Shown: piece by piece, positions 8,318 to 26,829 of the stretch | How the letters are laid out: every line of letters starts with the position of its first letter | Numbering within the stretch: the stretch's first letter is position 1 | From: a virus | Strand: one strand, 5' to 3' | DNA length: 27,304 nucleotides | IMG/VR virus record: IMGVR_UViG_3300047552_001580 | Span: 1-27,304 of that record | Notes under the pieces: generated by a model | Told to the model about the DNA's origin: nothing | The model's database searches: none | The model's input: the letters and a program-made list of their open reading frames with translations, nothing else | Program-made: the position numbers and the translations under genes

Positions 8318-8587
8318 TTATCTCACATATTTTTTGTAACTTAATAGACCTTTGGGCGTTCTAAAAATATCTGAACTATTTTCTTTTTTTTTATTTGGCG
8401 TTGGCACAACCAAGTTGCAATATTTTTCAATTAAATCATTTTTATTTTGAATTATGATGTTTTTTTTCTCAAGTTCAAGTATCATATTATCTATTTGTAT
8501 GCTTCTAACGTACGAACAAATTGCATATCCAAATACAAAAGATAATAGTATGCAAATTGCAAATGTTGTAACTATATAATTTACCAC
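8318..8587 (-). CDS. Small membrane protein with coiled coil
   Basis: An 89-residue protein starting at GTG 8587, which overlaps the end of the large terminase gene and follows AAAGGAG by 7 bases; longer in-frame starts upstream lie inside the terminase gene. Residues about 4-26 (YIVTTFAICILLSFVFGYAI) form a single transmembrane helix with a short outside start. Then comes a probable coiled coil (IQIDNMILELEKKNIIIQNK) and a basic tail. I do not recognise it; the topology recalls small phage spanin- or Rz-like proteins, but it is far from the holin/amidase pair, so that is only a suggestion. Confidence 0.6.
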   Translation of the reverse strand: MVNYIVTTFAICILLSFVFGYAICSYVRSIQIDNMILELEKKNIIIQNKNDLIEKYCNLVVPTPNKKKENSSDIFRTPKGLLSYKKYVR

Positions 8588-10080
8588 GACCTCACTCCTT
8601 TCTCTAAGTAATCTTTTTTCTGTTTTCTTGTGATTTTTTTTGCTAGCACCATGTCTTCTAGTTCTGATTCTAGATAAAATCCTTTTTGTACTGCATTTAT
8701 TTTTATGCCAGGTGGTGCTTGTCTCATGATGCAAAAATATCTCAACGAATCACAGGCGTGTGTTACATCATGAGGAATTGTAGCTGTATCGTTAGCGTCT
8801 TTCTCATCTTTCATAATTTGTCTCATAGAATTTATCAGGTTCTCACAACAAGAAAATATTTTCATCCTCGAGGAGAGAATTTCTTCACCTGTTTCTATAT
8901 CTGTCGTACTTATGACCTTAATCCATTCTTTAACCGCAAGCCATCCATCTACTCTTCTATTATCACTTTTAGTTAAGACCTCTTTATTCTCTCGAAATAA
9001 ATCAAAAATACTTTTCCCAGAATCTTTCTGCCTACCTTCTAAATCGGGTGGAGCGTATTTTATCTTAATAATATCATTATTATTGATTTCTGCAATCTTT
9101 TTTGCTGCTGCTGAGACAATTAACTCGCTTTGGTATAATTCTTTATACACATACGCATTATTCTCAGGGTCAATCGCTATCCAATAATTCGCTAACATGT
9201 CAAGTCCATAGTCTTTGGTCGTGTATCTGTGCCAATTTTCAGGAATAACAAAAGGCTCTACAACATGATAATCTCGATTGAACTCTGGAAAGAATACTCC
9301 CTTGCTCTTGACAAACCGAGCTTCCCCCAATTGCAAATATAAATCAGGGTCTGTAATTTTTAGTTGCTCAATGGATGCTCTTTGGTCTGTTGTAAGATAA
9401 GGATTGTCATGGTGAGTTGATAGTGCTATTAATACAGTTGTTACATCAGTTACAATCTCGCCATCATATTCAAAAGTAGTAGTAATGTTTTTTTCAAAAA
9501 CCTTTGGTCGATTAGTCCCTTTGAAATAAGATATAATTTTATCAGGCTTTGTTTCGATGAACATTTCATTCACGAAACAATCTGGATTAACAGGATTCAT
9601 TAGAACTGTCAATATCCTATCTGCTGGAGAGCCACCCCTTAATTGATGTAGTAAAGATACAAAATCCTTATAAGTTAGCCACTCTCCCTCTTCGACCACA
9701 ATTGCCGTAACCTGGTCAATAGCCTTGACCGCCTTTTTTTGTTGGTCTGAAGAGTATCCCGAAAACAGGGCAACATTTTTATTTAATTTGTTTTCAATTG
9801 CGGCAGGCTGTTTTGTGAACTTATAAGCTTCTTCATGTTCAAACTGTTCTATTTTATCTTTTAATCCTGCATAGTACCCTTTGGTTATTCCACCTTCTAA
9901 ATCTTCAATAACCAAAAGCTTATATCTTTTTTTTTTACACAAATTAGCCGCCATTTCAATTTCTGAATTGTACGACTTCGAGGAAAATCTGCCGCCTATC
10001 TGTATTATTGCTTTATATTTTTTCCCTAAAATATTGTCATGATAAAAAGGTGTGACATTGACTTGTTTTTGTCTTCGCAT
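8581..10080 (-). CDS. terL: Terminase large subunit (packaging ATPase/nuclease)
   Basis: A 499-residue terminase large subunit that drives DNA into the prohead and cuts the concatemer. The ATPase part has a deviant Walker A, GGRFSSKS (residues 29-36), a Walker B AIVVEE (126-131), and a coupling-type segment STHHDNPYL (221-229). The C-terminal nuclease part begins with KDYGLDM (D290 candidate metal ligand), with D346 in APPDLEGR and D438/D444 in PHDVTHACDSLRY as further acidic residues. The order and the GGRxSxKS loop fit the PBSX/Terminase_3 family. It starts 3 bases after the small subunit gene; the ribosome binding site (GGAAAG) is weak, so coupling is likely. Confidence 0.96.
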   Translation of the reverse strand: MRRQKQVNVTPFYHDNILGKKYKAIIQIGGRFSSKSYNSEIEMAANLCKKKRYKLLVIEDLEGGITKGYYAGLKDKIEQFEHEEAYKFTKQPAAIENKLNKNVALFSGYSSDQQKKAVKAIDQVTAIVVEEGEWLTYKDFVSLLHQLRGGSPADRILTVLMNPVNPDCFVNEMFIETKPDKIISYFKGTNRPKVFEKNITTTFEYDGEIVTDVTTVLIALSTHHDNPYLTTDQRASIEQLKITDPDLYLQLGEARFVKSKGVFFPEFNRDYHVVEPFVIPENWHRYTTKDYGLDMLANYWIAIDPENNAYVYKELYQSELIVSAAAKKIAEINNNDIIKIKYAPPDLEGRQKDSGKSIFDLFRENKEVLTKSDNRRVDGWLAVKEWIKVISTTDIETGEEILSSRMKIFSCCENLINSMRQIMKDEKDANDTATIPHDVTHACDSLRYFCIMRQAPPGIKINAVQKGFYLESELEDMVLAKKITRKQKKDYLEKGVRSW

Positions 10081-10641: not shown

Positions 10642-11781
10642 TCACTCCTTTATATGTTTTAGTATGTGAGCAATTACATCTACTGTCCATCCGTTGCCAA
10701 TGCCTTTATATCTTTGGGTATTACTAACTATTTGTTTGCCACTCGAGTCTAGTATTAAGGTATAGTTATCAGGTAAAGTTTGCAATCTTTCGCACTCTAA
10801 AGGTGTCAATTTTCGAATAATATAATCGCCATCAGGTAAATCTATTCTATATAATCCTGTTTTCCCTCCACGACCACCACCATTAGACGACAAACAAACT
10901 GATTTACCTCTAATGCTATATACCCTATTTGCTTGACCGCTTTTTCCTATTTGTCCAATTCGAGAAGGCGTAATCAATAAATGTTCTTTGGTCATACCAG
11001 TTGTTAAAGTATTTACTTTATTATCTGTTCTAGGCGTTAACTCTTTGGATCTTCTAGGTGAAAAATCTTTTTTATAATTTTTGTAAAATTCTCGTCTTAA
11101 ATCTTTTGCTTCTTGAGTTCTTTTTTCTGTCATATTAAATAATGGAGAAATTAACTCTGCAATCATACTCCGCTGACTTCTTTCTAAACTATTCCATATT
11201 ACCGCACCATCATAAGATGCTGTTAATACATGTGATTTGTCCTGATAAGGTATCCCACTTTCTAAAATATCCTTTAAAATAATTCCTTTATCGTCTGGCT
11301 GTCGAATGCCAGGAATATTGGTCCAATAACACCGTCTCCTTTGCTGTGCTGATACTAAACTGCTGTTAATCATAATAAGCTCAACGCCTAATGCTTTTGT
11401 TATTTCTGCTTTAATATCTTTGTGTATACTATGGTTATTTTCATACAAAAAATATCTGGCTCCTGTTTCTTTAATTGCTCTAACAAAATGAGAAAATAAT
11501 TCAAATCCTATACCTTCGCTTGTTGTTTCCCTATCTTTTTTTGCAATACTCCAATAAGTGCAAGGGCTACCACCTATTACAATATCAATTTCACCTTTAT
11601 ATTTTGTAAAATCCTCTATCGTAACATCACCAAAATATTCATCATCAGGGTAATGAGCTTGTGCAATCCTATTAGCATATTGGTCAATCTCATAACTAAT
11701 ATATCTATCAACTTGTATATTAGCTCTTTCAAGTGCGATTCTGCCGCAACTAATACCATTAAAAAGACTTAATACTTTCAT
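10642..11781 (-). CDS. DNA (cytosine-5) methyltransferase, orphan
   Basis: A 379-residue C5-cytosine methyltransferase that would modify phage DNA and protect it from host restriction. The start at 11781 (GAGGT before MKVLSLFNG) is preferred over an upstream ATG because motif I (LSLFNGISCGRIAL, residues 4-17) must be at the N-terminus. Catalytic motif IV is GGSPCTYWS (Cys74). Motif VI is ENN (114-116) instead of the usual ENV. Motif VIII is QQRRRCYW (146-153). The variable target-recognition region (about 165-315) precedes LTPLECERLQTLPDNYT (motif IX) and GIGNGWTVDVIAHIL (motif X). No restriction enzyme gene is nearby. It is divergent from a small plus-strand cassette and has its own control region. 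Confidence 0.96.
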   Translation of the reverse strand: MKVLSLFNGISCGRIALERANIQVDRYISYEIDQYANRIAQAHYPDDEYFGDVTIEDFTKYKGEIDIVIGGSPCTYWSIAKKDRETTSEGIGFELFSHFVRAIKETGARYFLYENNHSIHKDIKAEITKALGVELIMINSSLVSAQQRRRCYWTNIPGIRQPDDKGIILKDILESGIPYQDKSHVLTASYDGAVIWNSLERSQRSMIAELISPLFNMTEKRTQEAKDLRREFYKNYKKDFSPRRSKELTPRTDNKVNTLTTGMTKEHLLITPSRIGQIGKSGQANRVYSIRGKSVCLSSNGGGRGGKTGLYRIDLPDGDYIIRKLTPLECERLQTLPDNYTLILDSSGKQIVSNTQRYKGIGNGWTVDVIAHILKHIKE

Positions 11782-11818
11782 AATTACCTCTTTTTTATTT
11801 AATATTACAATAAATTGC

Positions 11819-11844
11819 ATTATAAATACAACTATAGACCTATA
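11819..11844 (-). promoter_or_regulatory. Probable promoter and operator of the methyltransferase operon
   Basis: On the minus strand TATAAT (11824-11819) lies about 38 bases before the methyltransferase start. Immediately upstream is the element ACTATAGACCTATA (11831-11844 on the plus strand), which recurs exactly at 17987-18000 ahead of the early operon. No good -35 is seen, which would fit a promoter needing an activator or controlled by a repressor at this site. Confidence 0.5.
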
Positions 11845-11852
11845 AGATAATA

Positions 11853-11881
11853 TTGTATTGTCGAACAATGTGTGTTATAAT
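11853..11881 (+). promoter_or_regulatory. Promoter with dyad operator, copy 1 of the plus-strand cassette
   Basis: TTGTAT (11853-11858), a 17-base spacer and TATAAT (11876-11881) form a near-consensus sigma-70-type promoter. The dyad ATTGT-CGA-ACAAT (11857-11869) lies in the spacer, an ideal place for a repressor. The predicted transcript begins about 15 bases before the GTG start. The whole block is nearly duplicated before the second gene. Confidence 0.8.
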
Positions 11882-11902
11882 ATAATAAAAGGGGGTGATA
11901 TT

Positions 11903-12205
11903 GTGAATATAAAAAAAATGAAAGAACATATCTCATATGTTATTTCCGAGATAATAGCCGAGAAAAAAGATTGTAAAGATTATATGGAAAACGATACTTT
12001 AATGAGTGAGTACGATAATACAGTTAAGGAATACCGTATCATAGCTGACTACATTAACCTCTTTGCTGAATCCGATGAGGAAAAAGAATTAGTTAAGCTG
12101 TTAAAAAGCATTAACTATGTAAGATGCTTTGGGACTACACCCGAAGCGTACGAAAAAGAAATGCAAGATTTTTATTTAAACGATGATTCGGGAGGGATAA
12201 GATAG
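11903..12205 (+). CDS. Small protein of unknown function, gene 1 of the plus-strand cassette
   Basis: A 100-residue protein starting at GTG 11903, 5 bases after GGGGGTG; an upstream in-frame ATG (11858) lies inside the promoter and would precede the predicted transcript start. It is charged and almost entirely helical by composition (MNIKKMKEHISYVISEIIAE then KKDCKDYMEN; YRIIADYINLFAESDEEKEL), with an acidic C-terminal tail. No family is recognised. It is read against all neighbouring genes from its own strong promoter, typical of an accessory gene expressed at its own time. An anti-defence role is a hypothesis only. Confidence 0.75.
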   Translation: MNIKKMKEHISYVISEIIAEKKDCKDYMENDTLMSEYDNTVKEYRIIADYINLFAESDEEKELVKLLKSINYVRCFGTTPEAYEKEMQDFYLNDDSGGIR

Positions 12206-12207
12206 TA

Positions 12208-12236
12208 TTGCATTGTCGAACAATGTGTGTTGTAAT
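12208..12236 (+). promoter_or_regulatory. Promoter with dyad operator, copy 2
   Basis: TTGCAT (12208-12213), 17 bases and TGTAAT (12231-12236), with the same dyad ATTGTCGAACAAT at 12212-12224. The block 12197-12259 matches 11842-11905 at nearly every base, including the following AATATAATAAA and GGGGGTGATATT. It overlaps the stop codon of the first cassette gene. The -10 is weaker (TGTAAT versus TATAAT). Confidence 0.75.
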
Positions 12237-12256
12237 ATAATAAAGGGGGTGATATT

Positions 12257-12529
12257 ATGCAAAAAAAAGAAATAACCAGATTAGTCAACAGCAAAGATGG
12301 GACTTTGAGAGTAAACAATATTTGCTATTTAAGGAGGTGGACAAAGGATGGAATAGGTAGAGATGTTGACGGTTTGACACTAGAATTTGACGCTATTAAT
12401 AATGTGTACTTTGGTGCATTTGAAAATCAAATACACAGTAGAATTCCGTCGGAAATAAAAGAAGAATGTAGGACATTGATTTCTAAATTTTTAGAAGAGG
12501 TTATTATTAGATTAATAAAGGAGATCTAA
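12257..12529 (+). CDS. Small protein of unknown function, gene 2 of the plus-strand cassette
   Basis: A 90-residue protein, ATG at 12257 five bases after GGGGGTG. The N-terminal half appears beta-rich (LVNSKDGTLRVNNICYLRRW, VDGLTLEFDAINNVYFGAFE) and the C-terminal third is a helix (IKEECRTLISKFLEEVIIRL). No family is recognised. It has its own copy of the promoter/operator used by the preceding gene, so both may be controlled by the same repressor, and it is followed 2 bases later by a ribbon-helix-helix gene. Confidence 0.75.
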   Translation: MQKKEITRLVNSKDGTLRVNNICYLRRWTKDGIGRDVDGLTLEFDAINNVYFGAFENQIHSRIPSEIKEECRTLISKFLEEVIIRLIKEI

Positions 12530-12531
12530 TT

Positions 12532-12705
12532 ATGAAAAAGGACATTAGAATTGGCATAAGACTAGACGTTGATACACGTAATGCGTGTAAAAGTTTAGCA
12601 CCAGAAGGGAATATAAGTTTATGGATTAGGATGTTGATCCTCACAGAAATAGAAAAAAATAATAAAAAAATTTGTACAAAGTGCAAGACTTCAAAAAACA
12701 TTTAA
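12532..12705 (+). CDS. Ribbon-helix-helix (CopG/Arc-type) putative repressor
   Basis: A 57-residue protein, ATG at 12532 with AAGGAG about 7 bases upstream and only 2 bases after the preceding gene. The sequence DIRIGIRLDVDTRNACKSLA followed by NISLWIRMLILTEIEKN fits the ribbon-helix-helix pattern: a short basic strand (RIGIRLD), helix A (VDTRNACKSLA) and helix B (SLWIRMLILTEI). A Cys pair CTKC follows near the C-terminus. Such proteins bind DNA as dimers, strand in the major groove. It is the obvious candidate to bind the duplicated dyads upstream and autoregulate the cassette, but this is inferred from context. Confidence 0.72.
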   Translation: MKKDIRIGIRLDVDTRNACKSLAPEGNISLWIRMLILTEIEKNNKKICTKCKTSKNI

Positions 12706-12712
12706 AGAGAGA

Positions 12713-12742
12713 AAAAGAGACTAACAATTAGTCTTTTTTTTT
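12713..12742. terminator. Bidirectional terminator between convergent genes
   Basis: AGACTAA-CAA-TTAGTCT (12718-12734) forms a 7-bp hairpin flanked by an A-run on the left and an eight-base T-run on the right. It closes the plus-strand cassette. In the other direction it ends the minus-strand early operon, whose last stop codon (12741-12743) abuts it. Confidence 0.85.
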
Positions 12743-12932
12743 ATATCCACCTTACCCCAAATTGTAATATTTCTATTTTTTTACCTAGCTTCACTTTACA
12801 ATCTTTTACAAACCGCAAAGTATCGCTATGTTGATTATCAATATGGACGTATATTATTTTATCAACTTGGCCCTTGACGAGGTAAGTTGCCATGAAACTG
12901 CTTGCTCCTGCTGAAAAACTTGATACTAACAT
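12741..12932 (-). CDS. Truncated PAPS-reductase/PP-loop-type protein
   Basis: A 63-residue protein resembling only the N-terminus of phage phosphoadenosine-phosphosulfate reductase-like (PP-loop) proteins. SSFSAGASSF (residues 4-13) stands where the SGGxxS nucleotide-binding loop should be, and YVHIDNQHSDTLRFVKDCK (28-46) matches the next conserved block (strand, acidic residue, His, xTxRFxxDC). The family is usually around 200 residues or more; here it ends right after KKIEILQFGVRWI, at the border with the plus-strand cassette terminator. It is translationally coupled to RusA (TAATG overlap, AAGGAG site). Probably a remnant or a minimal derivative; enzyme activity is unlikely. Confidence 0.6.
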   Translation of the reverse strand: MLVSSFSAGASSFMATYLVKGQVDKIIYVHIDNQHSDTLRFVKDCKVKLGKKIEILQFGVRWI

Positions 12933-19518: not shown

Positions 19519-22500
19519 CTACTTTTTAGAGTTTTTTTCAATATTTCTTTTAGCAATGTTCATAATTTCTTTCATTCTCAATAAATTTGCATCAATTTTT
19601 TTAATCTCTTCTCTGTATCCTGGTTTTCTTTCTACTTCTAATTCTCCTCTTTCTTTTCTTAAATCACTTAAACTCTTGTCAAATGTTTTATAAAGTGCAT
19701 TTAATACCGCATGTTTTACAATATCATTTTCAATTTTACCTTTCTCTGTAGCATCGTACATCTTCATTGCCGCTTCGTCTCTGCCTTCATAATAATCTTG
19801 ACTAATAGTATTTGACCGCCTTGCATCAACGAGAAATCTATTTGCCATTACATTTATTCCTGGTATATCTTTTAAAACTTTTAACCCAGGGACTTCATTT
19901 AATAAATCGCTTGCCTTGTAATTCGACTTGCCTGTTACTTCATCTATAGCGGATAAAAACGCATTTCCAATACTACCTGTATATCCTCTTATTAAATGGT
20001 ACACTCTCTTTGGCGATTGCAATATATCTGACTTAAATGGTATTTCGTTCATTACATCTGCTATCGCTCTTGCTGTATTGCTTGTGTATTCGTCATATCT
20101 GTACTTAGGAGATGCCTTCAAATCTTCTGAGTTTTCAATCGGTATACCTGACCATTGTGTATTAGTCATATCTTCAATAAATGGTCTTAGTGGCATAGGG
20201 TTAATCTCATAAGTAAAGTTATTCTTCAGCGAATCAGAAAATCCTTTCCATGCTTCTGGATCATTTTTATAGAAATACTCATACGCTCTTACAGGCACTG
20301 CCATAAATGGAATTGCCCATTCAAATCCTCTTGGAATAGGTAAAAATATCGGTGTTTTCTGTGGGTCTCCAATTGGAATTTGCCAAAAATTATCTTTTTG
20401 GTATGGTTTTAAATTCTTGTAGTGTTTATTATCATTTAGGTATGCATGTATCATTAACGATATAAACGCAATCATCAAACCTCTTAGCAATAATCTCTTG
20501 TTTCGTCCTGGGTCGGTGGCTGTTCTAAATGTTTGGTCAAATCCTTGAATATAGGCATTAGAGAATCTCCATATTCTATTAATTTGACCTTCTTTGATAA
20601 ATCGTCCTTTTCTTTTTAGGTCATAAGTCAAGTCTCTCATGTTGTAAATAGCTTCATCCCAATCTTCTTTGGTCGTGTTAGTAAATTGAAAGAATTGTTT
20701 CCATTGCGCTTTGATTTGTGGGTCAACAGTCATTAATAGTTTAGTTACAAATTCCCCTTTGCCAATGCTGTCAGCAAATCTTGTAATCATACGATTTTTA
20801 ACTGTTTTCTTTAATTCTGCTGTTTTTGTACCTAGCTCAGTCCATTGAATCAAGTCTCTTATAGTATTAAGTGGGTGTCTCATTTCCTTTTGTATCTTTT
20901 TGCTTAAACTTCTACCTCTACTCATATCGTCAATTATATCTTTTGCAAATCTGGATTCGTTTGCAAGAAACATTTGAGTAGTACCTCCACGCTTCATGGC
21001 TTCAATAAACCATTTGTCATGTGTCATTACTGATATTGCACCTTTCATAATGTCCATAACGCCAATCCCTGCTCTTGTTTGTAACCATGCTGTTAATACT
21101 TCTCTTGAAGTATTCCATGCAACAAATCGCAAATCATAGAGAATACTTGCCGCTTGGAAGTCACCTACCCTAGTTGAAACTTTTAGCAAGAACTTCATTA
21201 TTGCATTAAATGTAACAGGATTCATTCCTGATAAAGCCTTATATATTTCTGGCTCTACGTCATACAAATTAATCTTGCCATTTTTGTAAATTGCTAGTTG
21301 ATTTTTTCCTGCTATCATGTTAGGTCTAAAGATTTTTGCCATCATATCAAACTCCATGTCAATATCAAAGCCATTGTAGAATTTTTCAAGATCTACATCT
21401 TGGGCAATCAATGATTCAATGATTTTTTTCTTGACTTCGTCTAAATTGAAAGTTGTTGCTTTCATTCCAAAAGGAGCTTTGACCATTATTGCACCTTTAC
21501 CCTCTACTTTATCGGCCATCTTTGCAAGCTCTAACAAAAGCTCTTGTCTCTTTGCTGCTTGCCAAATAACAAATGTCATATTGACCATCGACTCGTAAGG
21601 ATTGAGTATCTCTTGCCCTCCACCTCTTAAAGATTTCACAGGGTTACCCTTTGACGATTTAACTCCAACTATGCCATCATCTAATACTCTGAAAAGATGA
21701 ATATGATTAGGATTTTGCTTCCTTATCTCATTTGCTTGTTTTTTGTCAAAAAATCCTGCTTGGGTTAAAACTAAAAGTAAGTTATCGTCATATTTTCTTA
21801 CAGCTTGAAATATCTGTGGAAAATCAGGATACTTTTCTTCAAGGTTTTTGACGGTATCTCTGTATGTTTGAATGTCTTGGGGTAGTGCCAAATTTCTAGC
21901 ATGATAATCCTCGGCTCTTCTTCCTATAGCATATGACTTCCAAAAGAAATCTCTCTTTTTATTGTCATTTGCAAGTGGTAATAATACATCAAACAAACTA
22001 GGACCTACTTCATTATGGTTTAGATCTGATTGATATAATCCCTTTATCCCTTTAGGATTGATAGAAAACATTGCTGTTGATTCATATCCTTTGGTGGCTG
22101 CTATTATTTGTTTGATTTTTGTTTTTCCCTCTACACCACCTAGCTCAACGGCAACTTTAATTGCAGGATAGTATTCATCCACCATTTGTGTGTAGAACTG
22201 AGATAATTTAAGGTTGAGTGTCTCTCCTTTTGCTCGTTGCTTGTCAACCTCTGCCTTATCCCAAACATCCCTCATTACTCTTTCTTCTGGAGATAAATTA
22301 ACAAGATCTGATATGTCTTGCATTCTTTCATTTAGGAATCCTAAGAAATCAGGGTCAATTGTTCTTTTATAATATTCAAACGTTTTGGGCGCACGAGCGA
22401 ATGCTTGAACATTATCGGTAAGATACAATCTAGTGAACTCTGCTATTCCTTCATCAATTTGAACTCTTTCTTTTTGTGAGTTTGTTGTCATTTTTCCTAG

Positions 22501-25500
22501 TCTAACTAACTCGTTGATGATGCCTCTATCTTGAACATCTGATAACTTATACATTTTATCAATCAAATGTCCTGCTTCATGCGTGAATGTTGGTATATCG
22601 TTTGCTTTTCTGAGCCTAATTACATGTGTTCTAACTTGTAAATATCCTAAAACATTCTTACGATTAATCTTCCCAACTCTGACTTTGTTCATGAATTTCT
22701 TTTCAAACTCTCCTATAATTTCCGATGCCCTTTTTGCTTTCCCTGATGTGTTTAATCCTGATGCAGGGGGTAACTCTAATTCATTCTCGCTTGTTAATGG
22801 TTTATATTCATCTTTCTCTTCAAATAGGGATTGCCCTTCAATCATTACTGAGTCTTTCATTTCTAGGGTTATTGGTAATGCCTGTTGTGTCACGCCATTA
22901 ATTTCTATGGTTTGAACTTGCGTATTCCAACGTTTAGCGTACTTGTTTAAAAATTGGGGAATCATTTTGTCGTAGAATGCTTTCATTCCACTACCGCCTA
23001 TTTGTAGATTATCACCTGTTAAATATTTTACATTTTTTGTGTCTGAAGGAGGAAAGTTGTTTGACCTTTTTTTTCCTTCTTTATTTAATATTTTATTTGC
23101 TATGTTATTTCCAAATGTCTCTTCTAATTCATCTGCTTTAAGATACTTTTGAACGATAATGAGATTGCCGTTCATCCCCATAATTGATAATCCAAATACA
23201 TCATCATTTTCTTTCCAATAAGCAATTTCTTTTACGGATTCTTTTAAATTGTACCTCTCGTTTTGTTGATTCCCTGTAGTCCATGATAAATAATCATAAC
23301 CGTTTTCGGCAGCATATCTTATCATTCTTTTTAGCACAAACTCATGCCATGTTGTTTTAAATGGTGCATCTGGGATTTTTGAATCTTGAAATTCTATTTC
23401 ATTAATTTCTTCACGAATTTTATTTATTTCTAACTTTATCTTGTCCAAAAGTAGTTTTTCAGAATCATAAAGCTTTGTGAATAAATTAAATGAATTAATA
23501 TTAAGCCATGCATAATCTTCGGTTTCAGCTCTAATTAAAACCTGATTTTTACCTTTTATTAGTAAATATTCTGTTTCTATACCAAATACACCTTGACTTT
23601 TTCTTGTTTCTAATCTCAATTCTTTACCAATTGGTGAATTCTTCTTTATTTTTATTATATCTTCATTTAATTTATGTATTTTTTTTAATTTATCAGCAAT
23701 TGATTCTTTATCTTGTTCTGTTAAATTCTTTTTATACCCCTTTTTTCGTCCTTCTTGATGCCAGTCGCTCTGTATCTCTTCTAAAAATAGAACATTATCC
23801 CCGTTACTATCATATCGGTCATTAAACCTTGTAAACGCTAATACGTTTAATTCTTTCCAATGTGATTGTGGTGAAATATAACTTTTTGGTTTTATTAATT
23901 CTTGACTTGTTTTCAAAACTAAATCAACGGCTTCTGCTTCTGAGTCATACGAACCCATACTATCACCATTATTATTAACAACTGTCCATCTTCCATCTTC
24001 TGTTTGTTTTGTTTGGTAACCTTTTGGCAATTGTTTTAAATCTTTATTTTTTAGAATAAATAATAACTCTTTGTAATTTTGTCCTCCTCCTACAACTTGA
24101 AACTTGTCGTGTTTTGTTCTTTTTTGTATATTTGTTCTTATAGGTTCCAAATAATCTTCTCGAAATTCTAATAAAAATTCTTCTTCTAAATATTGTATTG
24201 CTGTCGTAGTACCCAAATATTCTGAATCTTCTGGTACTATTAAATCATATGATAATAAATCTTTAATATATCCATCCTTCATTTCAAACTTTACTTGAAA
24301 AAACTTATTTTCATATGTAACATCTTGTGTTTCATACTCATTCAATTCCGATCTAAGTTCTTTTAAATTATATTTTTCAATAATATATTTAGTTGTTGCA
24401 ATTTTTATTTTCTTTTCCAAAACTATTTCTTCGTTATCAAAAATAGTTTCCTCAATCTCAATCTCGTTCATCCTCAAAAACTCAAGCAACTCTTTTTTAT
24501 CAATCTTATCTTTGTTTATTATAAAGTCCTTCAATCCACTCCATTTGACTTCTTCTTGTTTAATTCCATTCTTAGGATTACTTATTAATCCTAGTAATGC
24601 ACTCTTGTCTATTCTTGATGGTAGCTTTTCCTCAATGACACGTTGAAGCTGTGAGAAGAATGGTCTCTTATTATACCGTTCTTTAATCTCTTCAAGTCTT
24701 ATCGTTGGATAATCTGAGGTTCTTTTACCCATCCAAAAACCGTCTTTTGGATTTACCTTAGAATTATCTTGTCTATATGACTTGATTTGATTTTCACTAG
24801 AAACATATAAAACATCTTCAATATACGCTTCTTTTATCATATCTGCTTTAGTTGCCTCATAGCTGAGTTTATCATTGGTTACCACAAATGACATTGCTGA
24901 ACCAAATTCAATGTTTCTTGATTTCAAGAAGTCCTTAAAGTATTCAGTATCCTTTAACATTTCATTAGGCACTTCTTCTATACCTTGAACATATAACTTT
25001 GCGTTAACATGCACTAAAGTTGAATACTTATCGCTACCTTTAAGCTCTAATGCTATTTTTGACAAGTCGTTTGCTGATTCTATTTTTTTACTTAATAATG
25101 GATGTTCTTTTGATGCTTTTAGTATTAAATCTTCTTCGTGAAACTTGTGTTCTTTTTCTGTCCCCATATACCCATTTGGCTTATCTGGATTTTTCTTTAG
25201 CTCAACATATTTATTCGAATCTAAAATTATATGACTAATAAATCCAGGTAGTGACTTATCAACTGTATCGGTAGCTGTAACATCTCCCTTCGATGCTTCT
25301 GGAAAACCCGAAGGGTGATTGTGTATCAAATAATATCCTGTCGCTTGCTTATCTTTCATAATTTGTGCAAGCTCTTTAAACCATTTTTCGTTATCTTTTC
25401 TTACGTTTATCCCTATTATCCACTTATCTCCCTCTTCACTATACTCAGAAAAAGGCTTAATATAAGGATTAATAACACAACTTCCTGCAATACACGAACT

Positions 25501-26829
25501 TATTGACTCAACATGTACTATGACACCCTCTCCATCAACAAATACATACCTGAGAGTTTCAAACCTAGGGTCTCTAAAAGCTTGGGCAATCACCGCTAAC
25601 TGTTGGACATTCTCGACTTTTGCTCCTGTAATTTGGATTTTTCCTGTTTTAATTGCTTCTGTTGTAATGGCATTTCCAATAACCTTGACCTCGTATTTAT
25701 TCCTACCCAACGTTCCTCTATCTCCTGGTATTTCACTTCCTTCAACTTCTTGTAAATCTCTGAGTGCTTCGGCTGCTGTATCAAGGTCTTTCACTCCCTC
25801 TTCACTAGATGTATGTTCTGGAAAATTACTAGTCAATTCAGTTCGTATCTGGTCGGCATCCATAGGTCGTGCTGTAGCCGTAGTTACTTCTCCCTCTTCA
25901 ATGTATTCATCTTCACCTTCACCATCGCCAATAACTTGCTCGGGATTAAGTATGCTCATAATCTCATTTGCTCTTGATGTAAGCTCTTTGATTTCCTGAT
26001 CCTTTGTGAATTTCTTTTCAAGTTGTTTGTATATTGCATCTAACTCGTTTTGATATTCGTTATTAGTTTGAGTAAACCTTTCGATTGACCTTCTGATATT
26101 CCCGACTGTTGTAGTTATTCCTCTAAAGGTATCTGTTTCAGTAATCGAAACATCTCCCGATTTCCACGTTAAACCAATTCTCGAAACATTTTTATCTTGG
26201 CTTGTTTGAACTAATATAACCTTGTCTATAACATTCGCAAGTTTAAACTCAAAAGTATCAGCTTCGGCATACTTCAAATTCTCACCTTTTTTACTTACCA
26301 ATTCATTGAAATACGTTTCGGCTTCCCCAAACTTATCAAAAGTTTTACCATCAATGACGGCTTTGAAGTTGTCACCTGTGATGTTTTCTACTTTACCTTC
26401 AAGGTTTTTGTATTCGTTTAGCTTCCTTGTATAGTATTCAATCTGACTTTTTAAGTATGGAATTTTTTCTATTAATTTTGCTCTGGCATCTGCAAACCCT
26501 CTTTTTTCAAAATTCAGTTTTTGAAGTTGTTTAGTAACAATCACTTGCTCTTTCATAAGTGGATTGTCACTTGCGATTGCGGATATTTCTTGAGCTGTTA
26601 GAGTTGTTGCACTTGGGTCCTCAATTTCTACATCATTAATATCAGCATTTAAAAATCCATCAATAACATTAGACTTCCTTTGGAGGTTATCCCAAATACG
26701 AGCATCGAATGACCGTTTTGTGATAATAACAAAGGTCTCTATTTCTTTATTGATGTTACCTTGTCGTAATGCTCTTCCATCTTCTTGCTGTAGGTCTTTT
26801 GGTCTCCACGGGTAGTCGATATGCGTCAA
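19519..26829 (-). CDS. Giant polyvalent protein (helicase C-tail, JAMM peptidase, HEAGH metallopeptidase, LPD38-like)
   Basis: A 2436-residue multidomain protein of the large polyvalent type, likely carried in the particle and injected. Order: tail of an SNF2-type helicase (PWRPKDLQQEDGRALRQGN, motif VI, residues 7-25) with coiled coils to about 300; RadC/JAMM-type domain with H503-N-H505-PSG...S513-x2-D516 in canonical spacing; LPD blocks at about 722-800 (FFSQLQRVIEEKLPSRIDKS) and about 1010-1260 (FLEEIQSDWHQEGRKKGY, AAENGYDYLSWTTG); a zinc peptidase with H1417-EAG-H1421 and E1464; and a long LPD38-like C-terminal part (about 1480-2436) with one hydrophobic stretch near 2115-2130. The TTG at 26829 is only a frame boundary: the real N-terminal part is in the other frame upstream. 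Confidence 0.85.
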   Translation of the reverse strand: MTHIDYPWRPKDLQQEDGRALRQGNINKEIETFVIITKRSFDARIWDNLQRKSNVIDGFLNADINDVEIEDPSATTLTAQEISAIASDNPLMKEQVIVTKQLQKLNFEKRGFADARAKLIEKIPYLKSQIEYYTRKLNEYKNLEGKVENITGDNFKAVIDGKTFDKFGEAETYFNELVSKKGENLKYAEADTFEFKLANVIDKVILVQTSQDKNVSRIGLTWKSGDVSITETDTFRGITTTVGNIRRSIERFTQTNNEYQNELDAIYKQLEKKFTKDQEIKELTSRANEIMSILNPEQVIGDGEGEDEYIEEGEVTTATARPMDADQIRTELTSNFPEHTSSEEGVKDLDTAAEALRDLQEVEGSEIPGDRGTLGRNKYEVKVIGNAITTEAIKTGKIQITGAKVENVQQLAVIAQAFRDPRFETLRYVFVDGEGVIVHVESISSCIAGSCVINPYIKPFSEYSEEGDKWIIGINVRKDNEKWFKELAQIMKDKQATGYYLIHNHPSGFPEASKGDVTATDTVDKSLPGFISHIILDSNKYVELKKNPDKPNGYMGTEKEHKFHEEDLILKASKEHPLLSKKIESANDLSKIALELKGSDKYSTLVHVNAKLYVQGIEEVPNEMLKDTEYFKDFLKSRNIEFGSAMSFVVTNDKLSYEATKADMIKEAYIEDVLYVSSENQIKSYRQDNSKVNPKDGFWMGKRTSDYPTIRLEEIKERYNKRPFFSQLQRVIEEKLPSRIDKSALLGLISNPKNGIKQEEVKWSGLKDFIINKDKIDKKELLEFLRMNEIEIEETIFDNEEIVLEKKIKIATTKYIIEKYNLKELRSELNEYETQDVTYENKFFQVKFEMKDGYIKDLLSYDLIVPEDSEYLGTTTAIQYLEEEFLLEFREDYLEPIRTNIQKRTKHDKFQVVGGGQNYKELLFILKNKDLKQLPKGYQTKQTEDGRWTVVNNNGDSMGSYDSEAEAVDLVLKTSQELIKPKSYISPQSHWKELNVLAFTRFNDRYDSNGDNVLFLEEIQSDWHQEGRKKGYKKNLTEQDKESIADKLKKIHKLNEDIIKIKKNSPIGKELRLETRKSQGVFGIETEYLLIKGKNQVLIRAETEDYAWLNINSFNLFTKLYDSEKLLLDKIKLEINKIREEINEIEFQDSKIPDAPFKTTWHEFVLKRMIRYAAENGYDYLSWTTGNQQNERYNLKESVKEIAYWKENDDVFGLSIMGMNGNLIIVQKYLKADELEETFGNNIANKILNKEGKKRSNNFPPSDTKNVKYLTGDNLQIGGSGMKAFYDKMIPQFLNKYAKRWNTQVQTIEINGVTQQALPITLEMKDSVMIEGQSLFEEKDEYKPLTSENELELPPASGLNTSGKAKRASEIIGEFEKKFMNKVRVGKINRKNVLGYLQVRTHVIRLRKANDIPTFTHEAGHLIDKMYKLSDVQDRGIINELVRLGKMTTNSQKERVQIDEGIAEFTRLYLTDNVQAFARAPKTFEYYKRTIDPDFLGFLNERMQDISDLVNLSPEERVMRDVWDKAEVDKQRAKGETLNLKLSQFYTQMVDEYYPAIKVAVELGGVEGKTKIKQIIAATKGYESTAMFSINPKGIKGLYQSDLNHNEVGPSLFDVLLPLANDNKKRDFFWKSYAIGRRAEDYHARNLALPQDIQTYRDTVKNLEEKYPDFPQIFQAVRKYDDNLLLVLTQAGFFDKKQANEIRKQNPNHIHLFRVLDDGIVGVKSSKGNPVKSLRGGGQEILNPYESMVNMTFVIWQAAKRQELLLELAKMADKVEGKGAIMVKAPFGMKATTFNLDEVKKKIIESLIAQDVDLEKFYNGFDIDMEFDMMAKIFRPNMIAGKNQLAIYKNGKINLYDVEPEIYKALSGMNPVTFNAIMKFLLKVSTRVGDFQAASILYDLRFVAWNTSREVLTAWLQTRAGIGVMDIMKGAISVMTHDKWFIEAMKRGGTTQMFLANESRFAKDIIDDMSRGRSLSKKIQKEMRHPLNTIRDLIQWTELGTKTAELKKTVKNRMITRFADSIGKGEFVTKLLMTVDPQIKAQWKQFFQFTNTTKEDWDEAIYNMRDLTYDLKRKGRFIKEGQINRIWRFSNAYIQGFDQTFRTATDPGRNKRLLLRGLMIAFISLMIHAYLNDNKHYKNLKPYQKDNFWQIPIGDPQKTPIFLPIPRGFEWAIPFMAVPVRAYEYFYKNDPEAWKGFSDSLKNNFTYEINPMPLRPFIEDMTNTQWSGIPIENSEDLKASPKYRYDEYTSNTARAIADVMNEIPFKSDILQSPKRVYHLIRGYTGSIGNAFLSAIDEVTGKSNYKASDLLNEVPGLKVLKDIPGINVMANRFLVDARRSNTISQDYYEGRDEAAMKMYDATEKGKIENDIVKHAVLNALYKTFDKSLSDLRKERGELEVERKPGYREEIKKIDANLLRMKEIMNIAKRNIEKNSKK

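Follow-up and report, generated by a model that had tools for sequence, protein, structure and literature searches.

The closest described parallels to the locus reported here are the acr-aca operons (Aca1 to Aca10), stand-alone units in which small orphan proteins come first and a small DNA-binding protein last, and in which the core of the promoter holds an inverted repeat (PMC9410906). The Aca families known from bacteria have a helix-turn-helix fold (PMC9410906), and AcaFinder demands a helix-turn-helix protein in a short-gene operon, its further acr-aca criteria being at least one acr homologue in that operon, genes on one strand, gaps below 250 bp and proteins below 200 aa (PMC9765179). 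A second parallel is offered by plasmid p576 of Gram-positive bacteria (pLS20 family, clade II), where the small ribbon-helix-helix (RHH) protein Reg represses several promoters, its own included; strong promoters with a shared regulatory sequence precede variable genes of mostly unknown function, and C5 methyltransferases or anti-restriction genes also belong to the establishment regulons of such plasmids (PMC8708921). The same study of 2021 sets RHH repressors of plasmid establishment genes against the helix-turn-helix proteins that repress anti-CRISPR genes in phages (PMC8708921). Furthermore, SIRV2 and other archaeal viruses have early anti-defence regulons in which unrelated small genes of one virus stand behind a near-identical regulatory sequence and some of the predicted anti-defence proteins are RHH or helix-turn-helix proteins themselves (PMC11065993), and Cluster K mycobacteriophages repeat a start-associated sequence (SAS/ESAS), partly with inverted repeats, before several unrelated small genes (PMC3203893).

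The DNA analysed here, referred to as the window, is the whole of a virus record of 27,304 nt, the minus-strand genes of which encode terminase subunits, a C5 methyltransferase, a RusA-like resolvase, a DnaB_2/DnaD-like protein, an amidase, a holin and a polyvalent protein of 2,436 aa with LPD38 and a RadC-like JAB domain (19519-26829). Opposed in orientation to all neighbouring genes, a plus-strand cassette comprises, in this order, a first regulatory block, ORF1 (100 aa), a second block, ORF2 (90 aa), an RHH gene (57 aa) and a terminator. The original prediction had described these as the only plus-strand genes in 27 kb, and the cassette is indeed the sole plausible plus-strand unit of the virus contig, with the remaining plus-strand ORFs overlapping minus-strand genes or lying in uncalled gaps or at the contig ends. 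On balance, we favor the view that this cassette is a moron-like accessory early operon, repressed by its own RHH protein, of a phage probably infecting Clostridia. The host assignment is judged from the terminase, as its nearest relative from a bacterial genome is found in an Oscillospiraceae MAG. The nearest relatives of the large terminase (8581-10080, minus) are 60 to 75% identical and share essentially this protein alone with the window, so that no synteny can be drawn from them; two other phage contigs (L003, L004), each with a 75% identical large terminase and essentially nothing else in common in the stretches compared, illustrate a strong mosaicism.

The last gene of the cassette (12532-12705, plus), whose start codon lies 2 nt past the stop codon of ORF2, encodes a protein with a pI of 9.8 that consists of an RHH core without an added C-terminal domain and represents the candidate autorepressor. 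Its earlier assignment as a 57-residue RHH protein was borne out by comparison with the RHH profile of a short beta-strand, helix A, turn and helix B: a profile built from this protein and its one relative scored 29.2 against 16 clostridial RHH_1 proteins, compared to 15.3 for the top of 200 column-shuffled controls. The window sequence alone is marginal (16.2 vs. a best shuffle of 15.3), and the call consequently leans on the relative described below. Pfam gave no call for the 57-aa protein, no helix-turn-helix family matched it, and a helix-turn-helix profile control in an earlier run aligned nothing. Since the known bacterial Acas are of the helix-turn-helix type, the cassette protein is, by fold, not an Aca of a known kind. 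The unit ends, again as predicted, with an intrinsic terminator at 12710-12742 (plus; 15-bp stem with U tract, -13.1 kcal/mol, z -4.2), a stem which a simple terminator scan passes over due to its low G+C content.

The sole detectable relative of the RHH protein is encoded by a second phage, IMGVR_UViG_3300049844_000115 (20.8 kb), the run APEGNISLWIRML being common to both proteins. Here, the RHH gene (51 aa) is preceded by an ORF of 69 aa unrelated to ORF1 and ORF2, and this unit is the only plausible one on its strand in 20.8 kb, located between an exonuclease/annealing-protein (recombination) cluster and an amidase (lysis) gene, with a strong hairpin at its end (z -4.3). Its promoter, read directly from the sequence, is TTGACA-17-TACAAT; neither a dyad of the cassette type nor a second promoter copy is present in this phage, and a different operator would be expected there, as residues of the DNA-contacting strand differ between the two RHH proteins. 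Within 10 kb around the relative's RHH gene, no further gene shared by the two phages was detectable. The homologous RHH gene is thus accompanied by a different partner in a phage that is otherwise unrelated, which suggests a constant regulator and a variable partner gene, a pattern based on two cases so far. An AbrB-like antitoxin-family protein is also encoded near the RHH cassette of the second phage (L002, 4148-4366, minus).

ORF1 (11903-12205, plus; 100 aa, GTG start, acidic with a pI of 4.6) and ORF2 (12257-12529, plus; 90 aa) are orphans; Pfam, PHROGs, PADLOC and NCBIfam, phage and plasmid records, IMG/VR (by peptide patterns) and the PDB all failed to give a meaningful match for either. 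The structural model of ORF1 is all-helical and of low confidence, and a fold search with it returned nothing; the model of ORF2 was unusable (pLDDT 43). Plasmid records yielded nothing, matches of ORF2, the RHH profile and the relative's RHH protein in 391 clostridial genomes were marginal or absent, and tblastn near the methyltransferase gene in its relatives detected no homologue of the RHH protein, ORF1 or ORF2. Weak matches of ORF1 to the C-terminal part of clostridial AdhE-like proteins (best E of any match 1.5e-4, in one of the 391 genomes) were judged to be due to chance. Likewise, no acr or aca homologue was found among Pfam, PHROGs, NCBIfam and phage records, the family libraries of which contain few Acr families. 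A database search of the cassette proteins, with a look at co-occurrence with acr or aca genes, had been proposed along with the original prediction; it yielded an RHH relative in the same architecture, but no acr or aca homologue.

With regard to size, the cassette lies within the range set for acr-aca operons, its genes being all on one strand, with gaps of 51 and 2 nt and proteins of 100, 90 and 57 aa. Its logic is likewise Aca-like: a stand-alone unit, a putative inverted repeat in the core promoter, and orphan genes that vary while the small DNA-binding protein at the end stays the same. The initial proposal of an anti-defence operon with an Aca-like RHH autoregulator is thus supported in part, namely in its architecture, its RHH call and its logic; the anti-defence function is putative, with ORF1 and ORF2 matching nothing known. 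Host-takeover genes may share such an organization, and an anti-defence role of ORF1 and ORF2, plausible by analogy, consequently stays a guess. It is a reasonable one, because in archaeal viruses a conserved regulatory sequence common to unrelated small genes is a mark of predicted anti-defence genes (PMC11065993). A stricter and narrower form of the favored explanation, in which the RHH protein would represent a new type of Aca and ORF1 and ORF2 would inhibit a host defence, be it CRISPR, restriction or another, appears to us a serious but minority possibility. No homologue of a known Acr, Aca or defence-related protein was found in the libraries searched, which contain few Acr families, and host-takeover proteins also occur among orphan small early genes; by contrast, the occurrence of small orphan proteins within an independent unit that looks autoregulated would fit, as would the divergent C5 methyltransferase, a gene type also present among the establishment genes of pLS20-family plasmids (PMC8708921), and the precedent of archaeal-virus genes with a common regulatory sequence within a virus enriched in anti-defence genes (PMC11065993).

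Each of the two orphan genes is preceded by a copy of a regulatory block, and the claim of two nearly identical promoter blocks proved correct: the copies are 53 nt long, identical at 49 of 53 positions (92%) and spaced by 355 nt. This duplication is far beyond chance, as random 53-mers reached at most 32 identities in their best match within 1 kb. Copy 1 (11842-11894, plus) contains TTGTAT (11853-11858) and TATAAT (11876-11881) at a distance of 17 nt, and copy 2 (12197-12249, plus) correspondingly TTGCAT (12208-12213) and TGTAAT (12231-12236); the pattern TTGYAT-17-TRTAAT occurs exactly twice in the window, compared to 0.03 expected occurrences. A second promoter reading, TTGTCG-17-TATAAT, has the same letters in both copies (11858-11863 and 11881-11886 in copy 1, 12213-12218 and 12236-12241 in copy 2). 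Allowing one 1-nt indel, the homology extends via the Shine-Dalgarno sequence (AAGGGGGTGA in copy 1) up to the start codon, at 11905 in the case of ORF1. The Shine-Dalgarno sequences of ORF1 and ORF2 agree with the consensus at 9 of 10 positions, the top ungapped match among the genes compared. A third copy of the block is absent from both strands of the window, where the next-best place reaches 30 of 53 positions. The start of copy 2 falls within the final codons of ORF1 (ATA AGA TAG), so that the repeating unit comprises the block plus an ORF.

Such a repeat could also have arisen in a recombination-prone cassette without any shared regulation, the block representing a recent duplication that brought in ORF1 together with its promoter, while the RHH protein regulates something else. 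The block homology stops abruptly on both sides and begins inside the stop of ORF1, and the near-identity of the copies may reflect mere recency. However, this same unit ends with the RHH gene, and the arrangement is repeated in the second phage, which makes this explanation unlikely in our view.

As originally proposed, both promoters carry a dyad in their spacer, and ATTGTCGAACAAT is found at exactly two places in the 27-kb window, namely these two promoters. Copy 1 (ATTGT-CGA-ACAAT, 11857-11869) has arms of 5 bp and copy 2 (CATTGT-CGA-ACAATG, 12211-12225) arms of 6 bp, each with a spacer of 3. The palindromic character, however, is within chance, since 48% of shuffled 53-mers contained such a dyad with arms of at least 5 bp and 14% one with arms of at least 6 bp, and the two copies go back to one duplication and do not count as independent evidence. 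The dyad is thus a candidate operator by its position in the core promoter, where acr-aca loci have their inverted repeat, and not by statistics. A longer operator pattern had no match in viral contigs, and in one viral contig, where TATAAT comes after the dyad, the dyad sits inside a coding sequence and was rejected as a chance occurrence. The absence of the exact dyad core from the rest of the window fits a local repressor.

This distribution also bears on whether the cassette might be the repressor side of a lysogeny or immunity switch, with the RHH protein repressing the lytic genes of a temperate phage. RHH repressors of this sort are Arc and Mnt of P22, and immunity regions typically show a single unit on the opposite strand that diverges from the phage genes and encodes a repressor-like protein, which is how the cassette is placed. 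Yet, within 27 kb the exact dyad core is confined to the cassette's own two promoters, no integrase was present among the window proteins examined and the regulator is preceded by two genes of unknown function, so that we regard a switch of this kind as distinctly improbable. Least probable is a toxin-antitoxin module with ORF2 (or ORF1) as toxin and the RHH protein as antitoxin and autorepressor, the toxin gene coming first as in HigBA: the gap of 2 nt between ORF2 and the RHH gene, the frequency of RHH folds in antitoxins and the resemblance of acr-aca loci to such modules (PMC9410906) would suit it, but ORF2 lies outside all toxin families in the libraries searched, the RHH relative has an unrelated partner, and the tail after helix B measures about 13 residues here and almost none in the 51-aa relative, too short for a toxin-binding extension as in antitoxins.

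For the favored accessory early operon, whose promoters look strong and whose ribosome-binding sites are strong, we envisage that both promoter copies fire together upon infection without the need for any phage factor. Transcription from copy 1 would give an ORF1-ORF2-RHH message, since no hairpin of note lies in the block-2 region ahead of ORF2 (z -0.35) and read-through from promoter 1 is to be expected, and copy 2 would add an ORF2-RHH message. The RHH dimer building up from both messages might then occupy the dyad, or overlapping half-sites, in the core promoter of both copies, thereby excluding RNA polymerase and switching the unit off. The outcome would be that ORF1 and ORF2 are made in a short burst early on; their target most likely lies in the host, host defence being the leading guess. 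Such a self-limiting burst fits the working of acr-aca loci (PMC9410906) and of the p576 Reg regulon (PMC8708921).

Further hints at a moron-like nature come from the flanks of the cassette. Its terminator is adjoined by an N-terminal remnant (63 aa; 12741-12932, minus) of a PAPS-reductase-like (PP-loop) protein, and on its other side lies the divergent C5-cytosine DNA methyltransferase gene (10642-11781, minus; PF00145, E 5e-32), correctly recognized as a divergent methyltransferase in the original prediction. The homologue of the stump in MT835516 has 249 aa and is 57% identical over 51 residues; the similarity ends at about 12762, some 20 to 50 nt from the cassette terminator. In MT835516, the full-length PAPS-reductase-like gene is followed by one small gene and then a C5 methyltransferase gene, and a PAPS-reductase-like gene stands immediately before the C5 methyltransferase gene in L031 and immediately after it in L021 (the gene names in L021 and L031 and the MT835516 methyltransferase were assigned by sequence reading and alignment). 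Altogether, three other elements have a C5 methyltransferase gene with a full-length PAPS-reductase-like gene, encoding 249 to 337 aa, adjacent or close by, which suggests a recurring gene pair.

The region around 12762 is thus likely an insertion or replacement junction, and the truncation of a gene that is paired with the methyltransferase gene elsewhere suggests a moron-like insertion. In the simplest reading, the cassette was inserted or swapped in at the cost of the rest of the PAPS-reductase-like gene; an independent deletion could also have left the stump. As for the features of morons, a promoter and a terminator of its own are present by sequence, with their activity predicted, whereas a deviant base composition is absent (30 to 32% GC in the cassette vs. 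28 to 38% in other genes). Genes of the two flanking types lie next to or near each other in L031 and MT835516, the PAPS-reductase-like one being truncated here.

The differences to the described systems are equally instructive. Compared to acr-aca operons, the cassette has an RHH instead of a helix-turn-helix protein, none of the known Acr proteins was found in it, and its promoter is present in two tandem copies. The likeness to p576 Reg is one of description rather than of compared sequences, with binding being putative here; p576 is a conjugative plasmid and not a phage, its operators consist of direct heptamers in pairs (TTATCCCnnTTATCCC) that flank the promoter on one side, and not of a candidate dyad inside it, and its promoters belong to separate operons, while the two of the cassette stand in series. 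The archaeal-virus regulons use TATA/BRE promoters for many genes per genome, in contrast to two copies of a sigma-70-type bacterial promoter, and SAS/ESAS differ in sequence, host phylum and copy number, with the role of ESAS being unclear in the mycobacteriophages themselves. A phage operon with a terminal RHH gene and a reused promoter block would therefore bridge the plasmid systems based on RHH and the phage systems based on helix-turn-helix repressors. More speculatively, the cassette could stand for a class of phage accessory anti-defence operons shut off by a minimal RHH protein, in parallel to the plasmid Reg, which would be invisible to Acr/Aca mining that scans for helix-turn-helix proteins and would grow by copying an operator-promoter block before each new gene, ORF1 and ORF2 being new inhibitor families; we consider this extension doubtful at present. 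The combination of a repeated promoter block and a terminal minimal RHH gene nevertheless offers a new search handle, and should ORF1 or ORF2 prove to block host defence, two new inhibitor families would result.

A possible promoter was also noted upstream of the methyltransferase gene (11782-11831, minus), where TTGTAT (11831-11826) and TGTAAT (11809-11804) resemble the hexamers of the cassette. The spacing is 16 nt there, and the cassette dyad is absent from this region. It is possible that the methyltransferase and the cassette are co-regulated, or that the hexamers are similar by chance.
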